From positions 1 through 64,000 of the forward strand of contig NZ_JAUIRR010000004.1 of assembly GCF_030577135.1 (NCBI RefSeq): DNA of 64,000 nucleotides. Direction: 5' to 3'. Position numbers and translations under genes: made by a program. Positions 10,610 through 41,677 of the stretch are shown here, one piece after another. Numbering within the stretch: the stretch's first letter is position 1; the number at the start of each line of letters is the position of its first letter. This DNA is from Sulfurimonas sp. hsl 1-7 (GTDB taxonomy: Bacteria; Campylobacterota; Campylobacteria; Campylobacterales; Sulfurimonadaceae). The notes beneath the pieces were generated by a model. That model was not told the DNA's origin. It saw nothing but the letters and a program-made list of their open reading frames with translations, and did not search any database.

Positions 10610-10933
10610 ATGGATGGAAATATAGTGGTAAGTTACAAAGTATTATGCGAGTCAGACATCTATAAAGAGGTATCTCTTAATGAGCTCCTACAAAATGAGA
10701 AAGTTCTTAAAGTAATAAAATCGGAGTATGTAAAAGGCGGTAGAAATCTAGATGTTCTTGCAAAAGACGATGCAACGATTAAAATAGAAACACAAAGAGC
10801 TGTTCACACATTTGAAGTATCTAAAAACGACTTTGCAGATCTACTGATCTTAGCCGAAGAGGATGCTAAAAATAGAAAACTGTTTAAAAAAGAGTGCGAG
10901 CGGGTTGAACTCGTGGATATTCAAACAGTATAA
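10610..10933 (+). CDS. Small cytoplasmic protein of unknown function
   Basis: A 107-residue soluble protein that I do not recognise. It has no signal peptide or membrane segment. The sequence has strand-rich stretches (NIVVSYKVLCES, then DDATIKIETQRAVHTFEVS) followed by a charged helix (LLILAEEDAKNRKLFKKECERVEL), consistent with a small alpha/beta domain. AAAGG lies upstream of the ATG, and a -10 box lies 54 bases before it. It converges on the heme-barrel gene with a shared hairpin between them. Confidence 0.6.
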   Translation: MDGNIVVSYKVLCESDIYKEVSLNELLQNEKVLKVIKSEYVKGGRNLDVLAKDDATIKIETQRAVHTFEVSKNDFADLLILAEEDAKNRKLFKKECERVELVDIQTV

Positions 10934-10949
10934 AATAAATATATATGTT

Positions 10950-10970
10950 CCAAAGAGGAATACTCTTTGG
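10950..10970. terminator. Bidirectional hairpin between convergent genes
   Basis: CCAAAGAG, a GAATA loop and CTCTTTGG form a perfect 8-bp stem (9 bp with the flanking T-A pair) exactly in the gap between the two convergent genes. Neither side has a long T tract, so termination efficiency is uncertain. Confidence 0.5.
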
Positions 10971-10971
10971 A

Positions 10972-12177
10972 TTAAAAGGCAATCATTGCCATAAAAAGCA
11001 GATCTTTATTTAGGTCTTTAACTGAATCATCTGGATAATCAGTTAGAGAATATTCTAACATGAAACGGATATTTTGTGCATAATTATATTCTGCACCTAG
11101 AGTAATACCCCTTTCATCATTCACTGCATTATTATTATCATTTAATGACAGGTAAGCCAGTTTAGCACCAAAACGTTCTATTGGATTGAGCTGTGCCCCT
11201 ATAGAAAAGCCTGTTTTATCTTGTTTTAGAAGATCTTTATCTGTATACGTATTTTTTAATACGATTCCACCAGTAACCATCAAAGAGATTCCCGAGACTG
11301 TTCCGTCAAGTTGCAAGTCTAAACCACTCGATACACGGTCTAGAGCATCTACATCATCAGCTTTTTCTTTACCCGTAGCAGTACGGTTTACATCAGAAAC
11401 ATCACCACCTATATAGTAGCCACCAATTGCTGCATCAAACGCTCCTATATTCATATTATAAGCTGCACGAGCAAGAAGTTTATAATGTCCATTTGTTTTA
11501 ATACTATTTCCCATAACCGGTACATAGCCTCCTATGGTGGCATAAATTCCATTTCCATAATAATAAACTTGTCCACCAGTAGCTGCACCATCACCTATAC
11601 CAAGTAATTGAAAGATATTTGCTTTTTTTCTATTTTCAAATTGTCGAATTGGACGGTATAAGCCTGTAGTGTAAATTTCAGTACCAGAAAAAGCTCCCAG
11701 TGCATCAGTCATATAAATAGTAGCACCCAGACGACCGACAGAAAATTCATCAGTAAATGCGATTTTTCCTCCTAAAAGTCCTTCGCCAAATTCCATAGAA
11801 GTACCAACATGTTCAGCAATTTTTCCACCTAAAACAATTGCTGATTCATCAAAAACCTCTGTAAATGAACTAGTAGTAGAAGCTGTTTTTTGATGATGGA
11901 ATCTTGCTTTAATGATAAATCCCATATTAAGCGTAGCTGGAATATTCAATCCACCACGACTACTTCCGGTAACTTCTTTCACGCCTCCTATCATAGTAAA
12001 ACCGGACATTTTAAACTCGCGTCCAAATCTATTTAATTTTGGAATGTTTTGAGAATGACATGTTACACAATTAGTATCCATTTGTCTTGCAAATGCTGGT
12101 GTGGCTTCTGCATTTGTAACACAAATTAAAAAAGGTAACGAAGTTAGTAAGATACGTTTAATGTATTGAACTATCAT
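10972..12177 (-). CDS. Monoheme cytochrome c fused to an outer-membrane beta-barrel (Cyc2-like architecture)
   Basis: A 401-residue exported protein. A signal peptide (residues 1-25) is followed by one heme c site, CVTCH at residues 37-41, inside TPAFARQMDTN and PKLNRFGREFKMSG. The rest is a run of amphipathic beta strands rich in Gly/Tyr and ends in a terminal Phe (LLFMAMIAF), the outer-membrane barrel signature. One heme followed by a porin-like barrel is the layout of Cyc2, which moves electrons across the outer membrane in iron oxidisers. ATG 12177 is chosen because AGAGGAG lies 6-7 bases upstream. The gene is monocistronic with its own -10. Architecture is fairly sure; the Cyc2 relation is inferred from pattern only. 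Confidence 0.75.
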   Translation of the reverse strand: MIVQYIKRILLTSLPFLICVTNAEATPAFARQMDTNCVTCHSQNIPKLNRFGREFKMSGFTMIGGVKEVTGSSRGGLNIPATLNMGFIIKARFHHQKTASTTSSFTEVFDESAIVLGGKIAEHVGTSMEFGEGLLGGKIAFTDEFSVGRLGATIYMTDALGAFSGTEIYTTGLYRPIRQFENRKKANIFQLLGIGDGAATGGQVYYYGNGIYATIGGYVPVMGNSIKTNGHYKLLARAAYNMNIGAFDAAIGGYYIGGDVSDVNRTATGKEKADDVDALDRVSSGLDLQLDGTVSGISLMVTGGIVLKNTYTDKDLLKQDKTGFSIGAQLNPIERFGAKLAYLSLNDNNNAVNDERGITLGAEYNYAQNIRFMLEYSLTDYPDDSVKDLNKDLLFMAMIAF

Positions 12178-12249
12178 AATATACTCCTCTTTACTCATAG
12201 CAAATCCATCGAATGTATTTCTCTTTGAATTTGTATTTGTATTTCATAT

Positions 12250-12255
12250 ATTATA
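12250..12255 (-). promoter_or_regulatory. -10 box of the heme-barrel gene
   Basis: A minus-strand TATAAT lies about 73 bases upstream of the ATG at 12177, giving a leader of roughly 65 bases. The stretch between here and the tRNA genes (12256-12393) shows no ORF or clear hairpin. Confidence 0.45.
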
Positions 12256-12393
12256 AATAGATTATGTGTAAAGAGTGTGTAGCAAAATATAGCTGTGAAG
12301 ATAAGTGATATTCATCGAAAAAAGGGCACTATATTGACACTATTAAAAATTAAATAAATTGATTGTTCGTATTTTAGGGATTTATAAAAGAAG

Positions 12394-12468
12394 TGGCTCC
12401 GGATACTGGATTCGAACCAGTGGCCAAGTGATTAACAGTCACCTACTCTACCGCTGAGCTAATCCGGA
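12394..12468 (-). tRNA. tRNA-Asn (GTT)
   Basis: A 75-base cloverleaf including an encoded CCA. The acceptor arms TCCGGAT and ATCCGGA pair fully, the discriminator base is G, and the anticodon loop CTGTTAA places GTT as anticodon. The T arm ACTGG-TTCGAAT-CCAGT is perfect. It lies 25 bases downstream of the CAU tRNA and is probably co-transcribed with it. Confidence 0.95.
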
Positions 12469-36955: not shown

Positions 36956-39900
36956 TTAGTGAGTAGCGTTAAAACTATTAACTATCTCTTGTGCAGCTGT
37001 ATCATTAAAGTAATACTCTACAAAACCACTATTTGCAGGAGTATAACTACCTCTAGACAAACGATCTGTAGTTGTACCATCTTCAAGTACAATACCAGGA
37101 GCTACTAAAATTGGGTTTTTATTATAAGCTCCAACTAAAGTATCATCAACTGTCATAAGGATCATATCAACTGTAGTTCCATTATTATCTGTATACGTTG
37201 TTGCCGTCCAAGTTCCTGCATTTGGATTAATAATAGTCGGTTCCATACTAAGTCCCATATAGACACTTGTCATATCAACTTCTACAACAGTTCCGCTTCC
37301 GTCACTAAACTGTTCACCCTGAGCAAACTGAAGTTCACGTTTATAGTTTTCACGATTATACACTGCTGTATAGTTGCCAAACATCTCTGATAAAGCAGTT
37401 ACAGGTGTTGCTCCACCATCTACATAAGCATTAACCTGTTCCCAGATATCATACTCTGCATTTAACATAAGTACAGCTACTTTAGAAACAACTGAACCTG
37501 TTGGTAATGTAATACCAAGTTCGCCTAATTCTGTGATCTCACTTGCAATCTCTGTTGCACTCATATTACCATTGATTACAACAGCTTTTGCGACAGGAGT
37601 ACCTTCCATGCTAACTGTCATAGTACTATTCCATTGGCTATCGTGAGTACCATTACTATCAGGATTTACAAATGTACCGTCTGTTTTAAACTCTAAATAA
37701 TCATACTCAAGTGTAGCTGTACCGTTTTCATCAGTATTAACTCCCCAAAAACTATATAGTGGAGTATCTGCAGGGAAGATTTGTGGAGCTGTAGCGTATG
37801 CATCAAATTCAGTAGAAGTTAGATTTTGAGATGCTTCACTCATCCCGTAAAGAGAATCTGTGTTCATTGAAGCTTCTACAAAAACACTGTATGTCACTGT
37901 TGAATTAACATCACCATCACTCATTGTAACTGTTATAGTTGCATTCCCCTCTTGTACTGTTTCAATCGTAAAATTACCATCAGAAGAGAGTGTTGTAGCT
38001 GTACCAAAAACTTGACTTGGATCGTTAATAGCAGAAATACTGTATGTCACAGTAGCACCTTCAGGATCAATAGCACCGATATTTCCAGAGATAGTCTCAC
38101 CTATTAACATTGTAAATGCAGCACTATTTGCAACCGGAGGATTATTTGTTGAAATGTTTACATTTACAGTCGCTGTTGCTACACTAAAACCGTCAGTTAT
38201 AGTATATGTAAAGCTATCACTTCCTGCATAACCTGCATTAGGAATATATTCTACAATATCACCTGTCCAGTTAACTGTACCATTTTGACCTTGTGTCACA
38301 CTATCTATGAATAAAGTTCCTTCACCGCCAAAATCGTTTGCCAGTACATTGTATGTTACAGTTGTATCCGGCTGAGTTGTTATACTATCATCAACTGCTG
38401 TCAGTTGTGTTGGAGTCGGTTCTGTAGTCCCTCCATCAAGAGTACCGCCGTTTGCAATAAATGTTGCAATAGCTGATTTAATATCATTCACTGCTAAATC
38501 ATTAAATTCTGCTTGTTCTGTATCTATTTTAAACTCTGTTGCAGCTGCTTGATAGTGACCTTTACGTACTGCACCGTCTGCTACACCTATTAAGTTATCT
38601 TCCCATTGAAAATAACTCTCTTTTCCAGCATCAGGTGTATATGTCACAATAAGTTGGCTATTAACAGTTTTTGCTTCCCATGTACCAACTTTTGTTTGTG
38701 GATATGGGTTTACTGAATGATCCGTAACTACTAAATTACCGCTCATTCCAGCAGATACACTAGTGAATTCTGTTCCAATAGAATCAACTACAGGACAGTT
38801 ATGGAACATATCACACTGTACTGAAGCTGTATTTCTTTCAAAATCAACACCTGTCCACATACCTGTTACCTCATCATAAGAACCAGCCGGTGAATTTACA
38901 GACTGCATATAATCATAGATAGTACTAAATGTCTGATCTGTTGAATACCAGTTAAATGTTACAGGATCTTGTTCTTGTACTGTTGGAGCATCCCATAATT
39001 CATAAAGATCTGTTGTTGGTTTAAACGCTAAAATATACGCTTTAGCGCCTGTATTAAATGTTACATTATCTTCACCAGGAACTTGAGCATTAATCTCTGC
39101 AATAAATGCAGTACCTTCAGCTGTTGGATTTGCTAAATCGTATTCTGCTGCAATTTGTACAGCCATACCATTTTCAAATGTAATCACACCATTGTTAAGC
39201 GTATAAGATTTAAATGATTCTGTTGTCCAGCCGTTTACACCAAGTACATAGTCACTGTTAGCTTTTGTACTGGCTTCAAAAACACCCGTCGTCGTATTTA
39301 ACTCATAAGCATTTTCTGTAAATGTACCGTTGTTTAAACTATGAGTTCTTAATTCAACAACCGTTTTATCATAATCTACCCATACATCAAAGTTAGAGAA
39401 CTGCATACCGTCTATAAAACTGATTGCTGGAGTTGTACTGCCACTTACAGGTGCTGCTTCTGCTGCTGCTAAGGCAGTTGCCGCTGCCGCTGCATTTTCC
39501 CCTATAACAGTTGCTTTTGCTTCAAAAGTTACTTTTGCAGCATTTGCACTTACGTTTGCATCGATTGCAGCTTGTTCAGTTACATTTGCATCATTTACAA
39601 TCACATTTGCAGCTTGTGCATCTGCTACTGCTTTTAATAGATCTGCATACGCACTTACTGTATTATCTGCAGCAACTTTAGCTTGGTCTGCATACGTTTG
39701 TGCATTAGGGTTTGAATCGGCAATAGTCTGTGCTGCACTCGCTGCCTTAACTGCACCGTCTTTTGCACTAGATAATACAGTTGCATTACCTTCAAGTGCT
39801 ACTGTAATTGCATTTACTTCCGTTTTGTTTGCAGTGATGATAGCCAATATTCTTTCAGCTTCTGCCGCTGCAGCAGCTGCGGCTTGTTCTGCTGCTAAAA

Positions 39901-41677
39901 TCAACTCTACTGAAGATTTTAAGTTAAGGTTTGAAATGTAGTTTGCATGAACCAATGCTACTTTTGTTTCAGCACTCAACTTTAGTTGTGTAGAAGTATT
40001 AACATCTGTTGAATTAGCATCAACCATAGCTTGTACTTGACTTTGTAAAGCTATCATTTCTAATAATGTTGTACTTGCAGCAGTTGCATTTGAATCAGAC
40101 TGAGATAATAATGTAACTGCCGCCGCAGATGTAGTTAAATTGTTATCATTTATAAAAGTACCGATTTTTGATGCTAGAACATTTGTTTGATTTGCATCAT
40201 TTGTCGCTTGAGAAACATAAAATGAAACAATTGTAGAATCTGCATTTACCTGTGCTTTGGCAATTGTTTCTGCTGCTAAAGCTTCTGCTGCTTCTGCTGC
40301 TGCTTGTGCTGCTGCTAAATCAGCTGCTGCCTCTGCTGCTGCTTGAGCTTCTAAAGCTGCTGCTTCACGTGCCGCTGCTGCCGCTGCTTCTGCCTCTGCT
40401 TGAAGTTGAAGAGCAATTGCTTCTTCCTCTTTTGCAGCTTGTGCTTCTAAAATTGCAGCTTCTTCTGCCGCTGCTGCTGCTTGTGCCTCTGCTGCTGCTG
40501 CTTGTGCCTCTGCTTCCGCTTTTGCTGCAGCCTCTGCTTCTGCTTTTGCGGCTAAATATGCCTTATAAGCATCTAAATCTGCTTGAGCCTGTGCTTCAGC
40601 TTCAGCTAATGCAGCTTCAGCAGCTTCTTTTGCAATTTGTGCTGCTTCTAATAGTGCAGCTTGAGCTTCTTTTTCTTGCTGAAGTGTTTCTATCGCTTGG
40701 AGATTAGCTAAACTTTGCGCTTGTGCATTTGTCAATGCTTCTAATGCTAAAGCAGCTACTTCAGTTTGTGTTGAAGTATTTACTTTTGTAATTGCTTCAT
40801 TTAACCTGCTTATTGCATCAACTGTGGATGCCAACGTAACTGATTGTTCTGCACTGCTTGCATCTTCCGCTACGCTTTGTGCAACATTCTCGGCTGACAC
40901 TTTGGCAGCTACACGTGCAGCTACAGCTTCTACTGTATCACCTGTATATACACGTTCAGCAGCTATTTTTGCAATAGATTCTATTTTCGTTGCATCAAGT
41001 GATACACTTGTTGTCGCACCGTCAAACTTTTGAGCAACTGCCGCAAAAACATCATTCATAGTATTTGCAGCGTTTTTATTACCCGCTCCCGCAACTGTAA
41101 CCGATGCAGCGTGTACTAAAACTTGAAGTTTCGTTTGTTGTGCAAGAATTTTTTGTGCATCTGCCGCAGATGCCGGGTCTTCTATTTTTTCTAAAGGATT
41201 AAAATCAGTCAATGTTGCATTAACATTCTCTAAACCCATCGCTTTTTTTACACTTGTTTCAGCCTCAGAAGCTGTCTTACCGCTATCAACAAGTGCTTGT
41301 ACTGCAGAAGTAAGAGGAGAGATTACCGAAGAACCTGCAGGAGCTTTTAGTGTTCCGCTAAATGCGTTACCCGTACCTTTATCTGTACCACCAACGACTA
41401 ATAATGGTCCCTCTTGAGTACTCTCTAAGCTGTACTTACCGTTTTGGTCAGTTGTCGTACTGTCTTCACCTGCATCACAAACATTATTTTTGTTTACATC
41501 GATACAAACTGTAGAACCTGAGAGTATCCCGTCAATTGCTGTTCCCTCACTAACCACACTTGTAGTTGTACCTGAAGGAGTGGTATCACCACCACCTCCG
41601 CCACATCCAGTTATCCCTAGTACAATTGCTGTACTGAAAGACAACATAGATGTTTTTAGAAAAAAGTGTTTCATCAT
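36956..41677 (-). CDS. Giant Ala-rich coiled-coil surface lipoprotein with Ig/cadherin-like domains
   Basis: A 1573-residue lipoprotein. The signal peptide ends in lipobox ITGC (Cys25), followed by a Gly linker. Residues about 40-75 form a carboxypeptidase-regulatory/SdrD-like repeat (STVCIDVNKNNVCDAGE). Residues about 320-480 are Ala/Glu heptad-like coiled coil, and 480-750 are Ala-rich helix. A beta module (about 755-1080) precedes a cadherin-like domain (about 1094-1176; VTYNVLANDFGGEG, DSFTYTITDG) and an Ig-like domain (1176-1269). The C-terminal module (about 1270-1573) resembles 755-1080, both ending GTWxA...RGxY. Gly at +2 fits outer-membrane sorting. AAAGGGG favours the second ATG. 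It lies directly upstream of the type II secretion operon, so it is a candidate cargo or partner. Confidence 0.8.
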   Translation of the reverse strand: MMKHFFLKTSMLSFSTAIVLGITGCGGGGGDTTPSGTTTSVVSEGTAIDGILSGSTVCIDVNKNNVCDAGEDSTTTDQNGKYSLESTQEGPLLVVGGTDKGTGNAFSGTLKAPAGSSVISPLTSAVQALVDSGKTASEAETSVKKAMGLENVNATLTDFNPLEKIEDPASAADAQKILAQQTKLQVLVHAASVTVAGAGNKNAANTMNDVFAAVAQKFDGATTSVSLDATKIESIAKIAAERVYTGDTVEAVAARVAAKVSAENVAQSVAEDASSAEQSVTLASTVDAISRLNEAITKVNTSTQTEVAALALEALTNAQAQSLANLQAIETLQQEKEAQAALLEAAQIAKEAAEAALAEAEAQAQADLDAYKAYLAAKAEAEAAAKAEAEAQAAAAEAQAAAAAEEAAILEAQAAKEEEAIALQLQAEAEAAAAAAREAAALEAQAAAEAAADLAAAQAAAEAAEALAAETIAKAQVNADSTIVSFYVSQATNDANQTNVLASKIGTFINDNNLTTSAAAVTLLSQSDSNATAASTTLLEMIALQSQVQAMVDANSTDVNTSTQLKLSAETKVALVHANYISNLNLKSSVELILAAEQAAAAAAAEAERILAIITANKTEVNAITVALEGNATVLSSAKDGAVKAASAAQTIADSNPNAQTYADQAKVAADNTVSAYADLLKAVADAQAANVIVNDANVTEQAAIDANVSANAAKVTFEAKATVIGENAAAAATALAAAEAAPVSGSTTPAISFIDGMQFSNFDVWVDYDKTVVELRTHSLNNGTFTENAYELNTTTGVFEASTKANSDYVLGVNGWTTESFKSYTLNNGVITFENGMAVQIAAEYDLANPTAEGTAFIAEINAQVPGEDNVTFNTGAKAYILAFKPTTDLYELWDAPTVQEQDPVTFNWYSTDQTFSTIYDYMQSVNSPAGSYDEVTGMWTGVDFERNTASVQCDMFHNCPVVDSIGTEFTSVSAGMSGNLVVTDHSVNPYPQTKVGTWEAKTVNSQLIVTYTPDAGKESYFQWEDNLIGVADGAVRKGHYQAAATEFKIDTEQAEFNDLAVNDIKSAIATFIANGGTLDGGTTEPTPTQLTAVDDSITTQPDTTVTYNVLANDFGGEGTLFIDSVTQGQNGTVNWTGDIVEYIPNAGYAGSDSFTYTITDGFSVATATVNVNISTNNPPVANSAAFTMLIGETISGNIGAIDPEGATVTYSISAINDPSQVFGTATTLSSDGNFTIETVQEGNATITVTMSDGDVNSTVTYSVFVEASMNTDSLYGMSEASQNLTSTEFDAYATAPQIFPADTPLYSFWGVNTDENGTATLEYDYLEFKTDGTFVNPDSNGTHDSQWNSTMTVSMEGTPVAKAVVINGNMSATEIASEITELGELGITLPTGSVVSKVAVLMLNAEYDIWEQVNAYVDGGATPVTALSEMFGNYTAVYNRENYKRELQFAQGEQFSDGSGTVVEVDMTSVYMGLSMEPTIINPNAGTWTATTYTDNNGTTVDMILMTVDDTLVGAYNKNPILVAPGIVLEDGTTTDRLSRGSYTPANSGFVEYYFNDTAAQEIVNSFNATH
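40252..40707 (-). repeat. Low-complexity Ala-codon repeat inside the lipoprotein gene
   Basis: Minus-strand runs of GCA/GCT codons alternate with GAA, encoding blocks such as AEAEAAAAAAREAAALEA. The opposite strand reads as a Leu-rich open frame, which is only a shadow. The stretch is likely prone to slippage, so repeat number may vary between strains. Confidence 0.75.

Follow-up and report, generated by a model that had tools for sequence, protein, structure and literature searches.

A Cyc2-like fused cytochrome-porin in Sulfurimonas, from a lineage sister to Cluster 1 Cyc2

Cyc2 serves as a marker gene for iron oxidation, and redox interfaces and hydrothermal vents are places where Sulfurimonas abounds. 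Within the first 64,000 nucleotides of a contig from Sulfurimonas sp. hsl 1-7 (NZ_JAUIRR010000004.1; this whole stretch is called the window here), one open reading frame translates to a protein in which a single haem c motif precedes what looks like an outer-membrane barrel (Table 1). A preliminary description, made from the sequence alone, had proposed it as a candidate Cyc2-like electron conduit. The question raised by this locus is whether the protein is a relative of Cyc2, to which part of that family it belongs, and what it might do in a sulfur-oxidising genus.

With regard to the gene itself, we preferred the ATG given in Table 1 over an in-frame ATG at 12198, because it is preceded at six bases by a GAGGAG Shine-Dalgarno sequence. 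Upstream of the gene we found no convincing standard two-hexamer promoter, just a TATAAT some 65-70 bases ahead of that start codon, and so the sequence does not demonstrate the own promoter claimed earlier. The translation opens with a hydrophobic signal sequence that terminates in AEA, in which the AlphaFold2 model places a low-confidence helix (residues 2-18), and then runs through TPAFARQMDTN, CVTCH, SQNI, and PKLNRFGREFK into about 320 residues of strands that end in a C-terminal Phe (...MAMIAF). Here, the last signal-peptide residue (A25) is also part of the Cyc2 motif. The haem site with its FARQ and PKLNRFGREFK flanks and the strands ending in Phe are thus as first described, and CVTCH does follow the signal peptide, though the distance from the presumed cleavage site to the first haem Cys is 11 residues and not 12. 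The FARQ-x4-CxxCH pattern has a single occurrence in the 2.28-Mb genome, at this gene, and the reversed control pattern has none. Moreover, no other listed ORF of the window contains a CXXCH, which bears out the remark that the window holds no partner cytochrome.

Table 1. Features of the cyc2-like locus, in window coordinates
Feature	Position	Strand	Remarks
Cyc2-like fused monohaem cytochrome-porin, 401 aa	10972..12177	-	ATG at 12177, stop 10974-10972; ORF translation
Signal peptide, residues 1-25 (MIVQYIKRILLTSLPFLICVTNAEA)	12103..12177	-	cleavage site read by eye
Cytochrome core, residues 26-49, TPAFARQM-DTN-CVTCH-SQNI-PKLN	12031..12102	-	sequence and motif comparison
16-strand barrel, residues 85-400	10978..11925	-	AlphaFold2 model, VIA-align to OprO/OprP, conserved residues
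Shine-Dalgarno GAGGAG, six bases 5' of ATG	12183..12190, approximate	-	sequence
tRNA-Asn, just upstream of the cyc2-like gene	12394..12468	-	bounds variable slot together with 107-aa gene
Conserved 107-aa gene	10610-10933		other boundary of variable slot

The protein was scored with a surrogate Cyc2 profile of 31 sequences, drawn only from Gallionellaceae, Chlorobiaceae, and Zetaproteobacteria and labelled as iron oxidisers by the organism names of their records, mostly MAGs, not by biochemistry. At full length it reached 206 bits, with 112 bits for the barrel alone and 74.5 bits for the cytochrome part alone, against a best of 4.8 bits among 200 shuffles and no more than 1.2 bits for the other window ORFs; the ORFs surrounding the Porin_O_P porin of this genome had no match to the profile. 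Since the barrel and the cytochrome part each match by themselves, while the shuffles and the porin ORFs do not, both halves descend from Cyc2, and we regard membership of the Cyc2 family as close to certain. The score of the barrel alone also rules out a soluble cytochrome family. With the 401-aa protein as the query, Pfam gave only a sub-threshold Porin_O_P match (E 0.021, below the cut-off), and neither NCBIfam nor a sequence search of the PDB gave any match.

The predicted structure agrees with this assignment. The AlphaFold2 model, which covers the protein only, without haem, was built from a 60-sequence alignment and is confident (pLDDT 86, pTM 0.84), superseding a poor first model from 12 sequences (pLDDT 64). 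Counting residues 102-121 as one broken strand, it shows 16 strands after the haem motif, with short periplasmic turns and one long loop within the barrel (residues 158-198), in which Glu167 and Glu181 are conserved. As the best solved match, VIA-align returned OprO (PDB ID: 4rjw; Z 23.6, rmsd 3.6 for 296 residues), with OprP (PDB ID: 2o4v; Z 23.5, rmsd 3.7 for 298 residues) alongside it. These two are named as the porins nearest to Cyc2 of M. ferrooxydans PV-1 (PMC8406198). Both phosphate porins have a 16-strand barrel like that of the window protein, at about 12% identity, though they are without a haem domain.

As defined by Keffer et al. (2021, PMC8406198), Cyc2 has a signal peptide, one CXXCH, an upstream AXPXFAR[Q/K][T/Y], a downstream PXL, a minimum length of 365 aa, and an OprO/OprP-like porin of 16 strands. 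In the window protein we find a signal sequence (read directly), a lone CXXCH near the N-terminus (CVTCH, residues 37-41), PKL four residues past it, a length of 401 aa, and, by predicted structure, the fused porin. The strict upstream motif is where it departs, as A-T-P-A-F-A-R-Q-M fits all positions but the last, with Met for Thr/Tyr; the adjoining residue is Asp for the Gly usual in Cluster 1, the clade of neutrophilic iron-oxidiser Cyc2. This last motif letter alone is a weak boundary, because Met or Val is also found there in rows placed inside Cluster 1 (FARQM in L041 and in clade C, FARQV in L069). Cluster 1 Cyc2 (Mariprofundus, Gallionellaceae, and Chlorobium; PMC8406198) otherwise has in common with the window protein the signal peptide, single CXXCH, AxPxFARQ, PxL, the CHxQxxPxLNxFGRxFK core, and the 16-strand barrel, at about 21-30% identity in the alignment. 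Across the 60 aligned sequences, CXXCH is invariant and FARQ nearly so, and R31, C37, C40, H41, E129, E167, R237, D287, and Y364 are mostly common to the window protein and Cluster 1. No second haem ligand, either Met or His, is conserved in this alignment. In contrast, K339, D354, and E375 are fixed in clades A and B, described next, and are absent from Cluster 1.

Of the 99 genomes searched, 16 gave a match, the window's own included. Besides clade A, to which the window protein belongs, the matches comprise the tandem pairs of clade B, clade C, a type resembling Cluster 2/3 (L021), and a divergent type with FARQY (L024). Among named relatives, the closest are MAGs of Sulfurimonas (L031-L034, at 51-55% identity) and CG2_30_36_10, labelled Helicobacteraceae; together with further same-genus genomes, they place the host in Sulfurimonas. 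Our final tree has 60 rows and is without two long-branch rows contained in the first one (L023 and the second copy of L049); it is rooted for reading on Cluster 2/3-like rows, an outgroup without the reference chromosomal sequences of Acidithiobacillus and Leptospirillum. Here, the protein groups with Cyc2 and not with soluble cytochromes. Clades A and B form one lineage, Campylobacterota as far as named, and its sister is Cluster 1, comprising Zetaproteobacteria, Gallionellaceae, Chlorobi, and clade C (supports 99/96 and 99/97, both starred). Because of this sister position and the Met for Thr/Tyr, we speak of a Cyc2-like fused cytochrome-porin and not of a strict Cluster 1 Cyc2. With these two qualifiers, the monohaem-porin identity first proposed stands, as the profile, barrel, and clustering checks suggested with it all came out in its favour; the observation is confirmed and its reading as a Cyc2-like protein is supported. 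All told, we regard the protein as an authentic Cyc2-like member in Sulfurimonas, its lineage being sister to Cluster 1.

The AU test rejected several other groupings, namely a single Campylobacterota origin with clades A, B, and C united (p 0.015), a union of clades A and C (p 4e-5), and clades A, B, and C together with Zetaproteobacteria (p 0.010). For clades A and B with Zetaproteobacteria the rejection was only marginal (p 0.043). All of these p-values lean low, because we named the groups with the first tree already in view. Clade B (Sulfurimonas/Sulfuricurvum; L013/L038, L014, L015, L036, and L037) contains the nearest relatives outside clade A, at 32-37% identity to the window protein and with a TGLYxPxRQFEN loop in common. 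Clade C (L016-L020, L071-L073, and L093) resembles the window gene in being of the same genus or phylum, mostly FARQM, and single, though it is nested in Cluster 1 and of separate origin. A Campylobacterota Cyc2 nested in Zetaproteobacteria has been reported (PMC12442345), and this is probably clade C. The Cluster 2/3 type (Acidithiobacillus and Leptospirillum; here L021, L022, and plasmid copies L111-L115, a cluster assignment of our own for these references) has the same layout, with FARQT..CxxCH..FPELTPFGR in most, yet its scores with the Cluster 1 profile are just 54-90 bits, and it lies across a 100/100 branch from the window protein. One such sequence, L021 (FARQTGLKCSACHTIFPELTQFGR), belongs to a genome of the same genus (G007), and the genus therefore holds several independently derived Cyc2 types. 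We also noticed a divergent set, L024 (G031), L023 (G095), and L049 (4671-5948), with FARQY or FAREQ, CxxCH, PxLNxxG(K/R)EF, and then a likely barrel; its branches are very long, those members that were scored reach just 25-46 bits with the Cluster 1 profile, and it may be a separate fused cytochrome-barrel family.

In the window, the cyc2-like gene lies between the conserved 107-aa gene and tRNA-Asn/tRNA-Met, in a slot (10934-12393) whose contents differ among close genomes. In G031, where the 107-aa protein is 94% identical, the slot is filled by a 272-aa secreted protein (L121, 1821-2639), and in L035 a cyc2-like gene is also found near the 107-aa gene. Elsewhere, in six relatives (L031, L032, L033/L011, L034, L010, and a broken G047 copy), the clade A gene is flanked by a divergent amtB and, on its other side, by gyrA, both names being given by sequence recognition, and in L034 extra ORFs come between it and gyrA. 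The amtB-gyrA gap of the window is just 150 bases and empty, with the cyc2-like gene about 8 kb off. The third-position GC of the gene is 0.18, versus 0.25-0.31 in five neighbours. Given the differing slot contents in G031, the varying location, and the low third-position GC, we consider it an accessory gene in a variable slot. On G047 contig 12 (L012, L029, and L030), the copy at the amtB-gyrA site is broken by in-frame stops, and thus the clade A gene is under loss in this one relative. The 107-aa protein was found in 7 of 12 tested genomes and is without a Pfam match.

A linked operon around clade A genes was sought and not found, and a secreted cytochrome c neighbour occurs at none of five clade A loci. 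Standing alone is the usual state for such genes, since a crude filter picked out a secreted cytochrome c less than 4 kb away at just 8 of 49 other Cluster 1 loci. Clade B differs from the single window gene in having two tandem copies, with a divergent secreted cytochrome c adjoining the pair (3 of 3 loci) and nearby DUF2202 genes (the protein being confirmed in two). The tandem-pair regions at L036 5439-10140, L037 5438-10490, and L038 6531-11327, where the Cyc2-like pair is accompanied by the cytochrome, by a DUF2202 protein with a Tat signal, and by a regulator (in L037 of LuxR type), represent a candidate extracellular electron-transfer locus in Sulfurimonadaceae.

The fold, the motif, and the homology of both halves to iron-oxidiser Cyc2 are computed, and the protein very probably works like Cyc2. 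As the best overall explanation, to which we give a probability of about 0.6, this Cyc2-like fused cytochrome-porin of Sulfurimonas would move electrons inward, most likely from Fe(II). Following export, haem would be attached covalently at CVTCH, the C-terminal barrel would insert in the outer membrane with both ends periplasmic, and the monohaem domain would, by homology, sit at the pore's periplasmic mouth. Some reductant in solution, with Fe(II) the most likely one, could then enter the pore from outside and pass one electron to the haem, from where a soluble periplasmic cytochrome c may relay it to a terminal oxidase, probably cbb3-type, or to another acceptor. Taken by its parts, this scheme is strongest for an electron conduit, which is highly likely; inward flow is likely, and Fe(II) as the main donor is about an even bet. 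Possible acceptors in the genome include several small cytochrome c genes (e.g. C2:222142 and C1:298823), and a COX1-family oxidase (C3:263297) has a cytochrome c gene nearby (C3:261574), as would fit a cbb3 oxidase by our own naming of the subunits. The lack of an MtrB/PioB barrel in the genome and the secreted cytochrome c at the clade B loci also speak for this scheme. Clades A and B largely have Glu129, Glu167, and Asp287 in common with Cluster 1, which would fit a metal path. Iron oxidation by this Sulfurimonas is plausible.

Against Fe(II) uptake counts that Sulfurimonas is a genus known for oxidising sulfur and hydrogen. Similarly counted against it are the features of clade A itself, which is without a cytochrome neighbour, patchy, broken in one copy, outside Cluster 1, and without a conserved second haem ligand. 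S. pluma, furthermore, was reported without Cyc2 (PMC10066037), and additional functions of Cyc2 are possible (PMC8406198). In the open-licence literature we came across neither an experiment on a Sulfurimonas homologue nor a study of the clade A lineage, although a published 1,593-sequence tree may include this lineage; that family members outside iron oxidisers are little studied, as had been remarked, agrees with PMC8406198.

The same uptake conduit might instead be fed by a reduced form of sulfur, by the surface of a metal sulfide, or by another cell, and not by dissolved Fe(II). Reduced sulfur and hydrogen are the livelihood of the host genus, a taxonomic overlap of Cyc2 and sulfur oxidisers has been noted (PMC12442345), and a role in extracellular electron transfer has been inferred for Cyc2 of the cathode organism Ca. 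Tenderia electrophaga. Nevertheless, the three biochemically tested Cyc2, one per cluster, all oxidise Fe(II), and acidic pore and loop residues are common to the window protein and Cluster 1, which leaves this donor switch unlikely. Electrons could also run outward, with Mn(IV), Fe(III), or something else outside the cell as the acceptor, as would suit a genome in which no MtrB/PioB-type barrel was found. A single haem at the periplasmic mouth can, however, neither span the membrane nor reach a solid mineral, and we know of no outward-working Cyc2 that has been described. Even with MnO2-coupled sulfide oxidation reported for a Sulfurimonas, as cited in PMC11748539, export is improbable, Cyc2 being argued to act on dissolved Fe2+ (PMC8406198). 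We consider it equally improbable that the protein is a common porin in which the haem motif either is a relic or serves a purpose outside respiration, for example detoxifying Fe(II) or gating the channel by redox state. The patchy distribution, the broken copy, and the missing linked electron-transfer genes of clade A would suit this reading, but the barrel is specifically Cyc2-type by profile and the near-complete conservation of CXXCH and FARQ places the haem site under selection.

To return to electron uptake from Fe(II), we tentatively suggest that a fourth, Campylobacterota-specific Cyc2 lineage, sister to Cluster 1, may let some Sulfurimonas use extracellular Fe(II) or mineral electrons, which would make a sulfur-oxidising genus facultatively iron-oxidising, though this wider proposal is rather less likely than not to hold. 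Should the protein oxidise iron, a single genus would join the iron cycle to that of sulfur; should it not, the Cyc2 marker needs more careful reading. Keffer et al. stressed that Cyc2 function is unverified in organisms not known to oxidise iron and called gene deletion challenging in the iron oxidisers themselves (PMC8406198). A Cyc2-like lineage in a genus with cultured sulfur oxidisers makes the question of function open to gene deletion.

Elsewhere in the window (36956-41677), we observed a gene for a 1573-aa secreted protein with a lipoprotein-like signal (GITGCGGGGG), which adjoins a cluster of type II secretion/pseudopilin-like genes located at roughly 27-37 kb.
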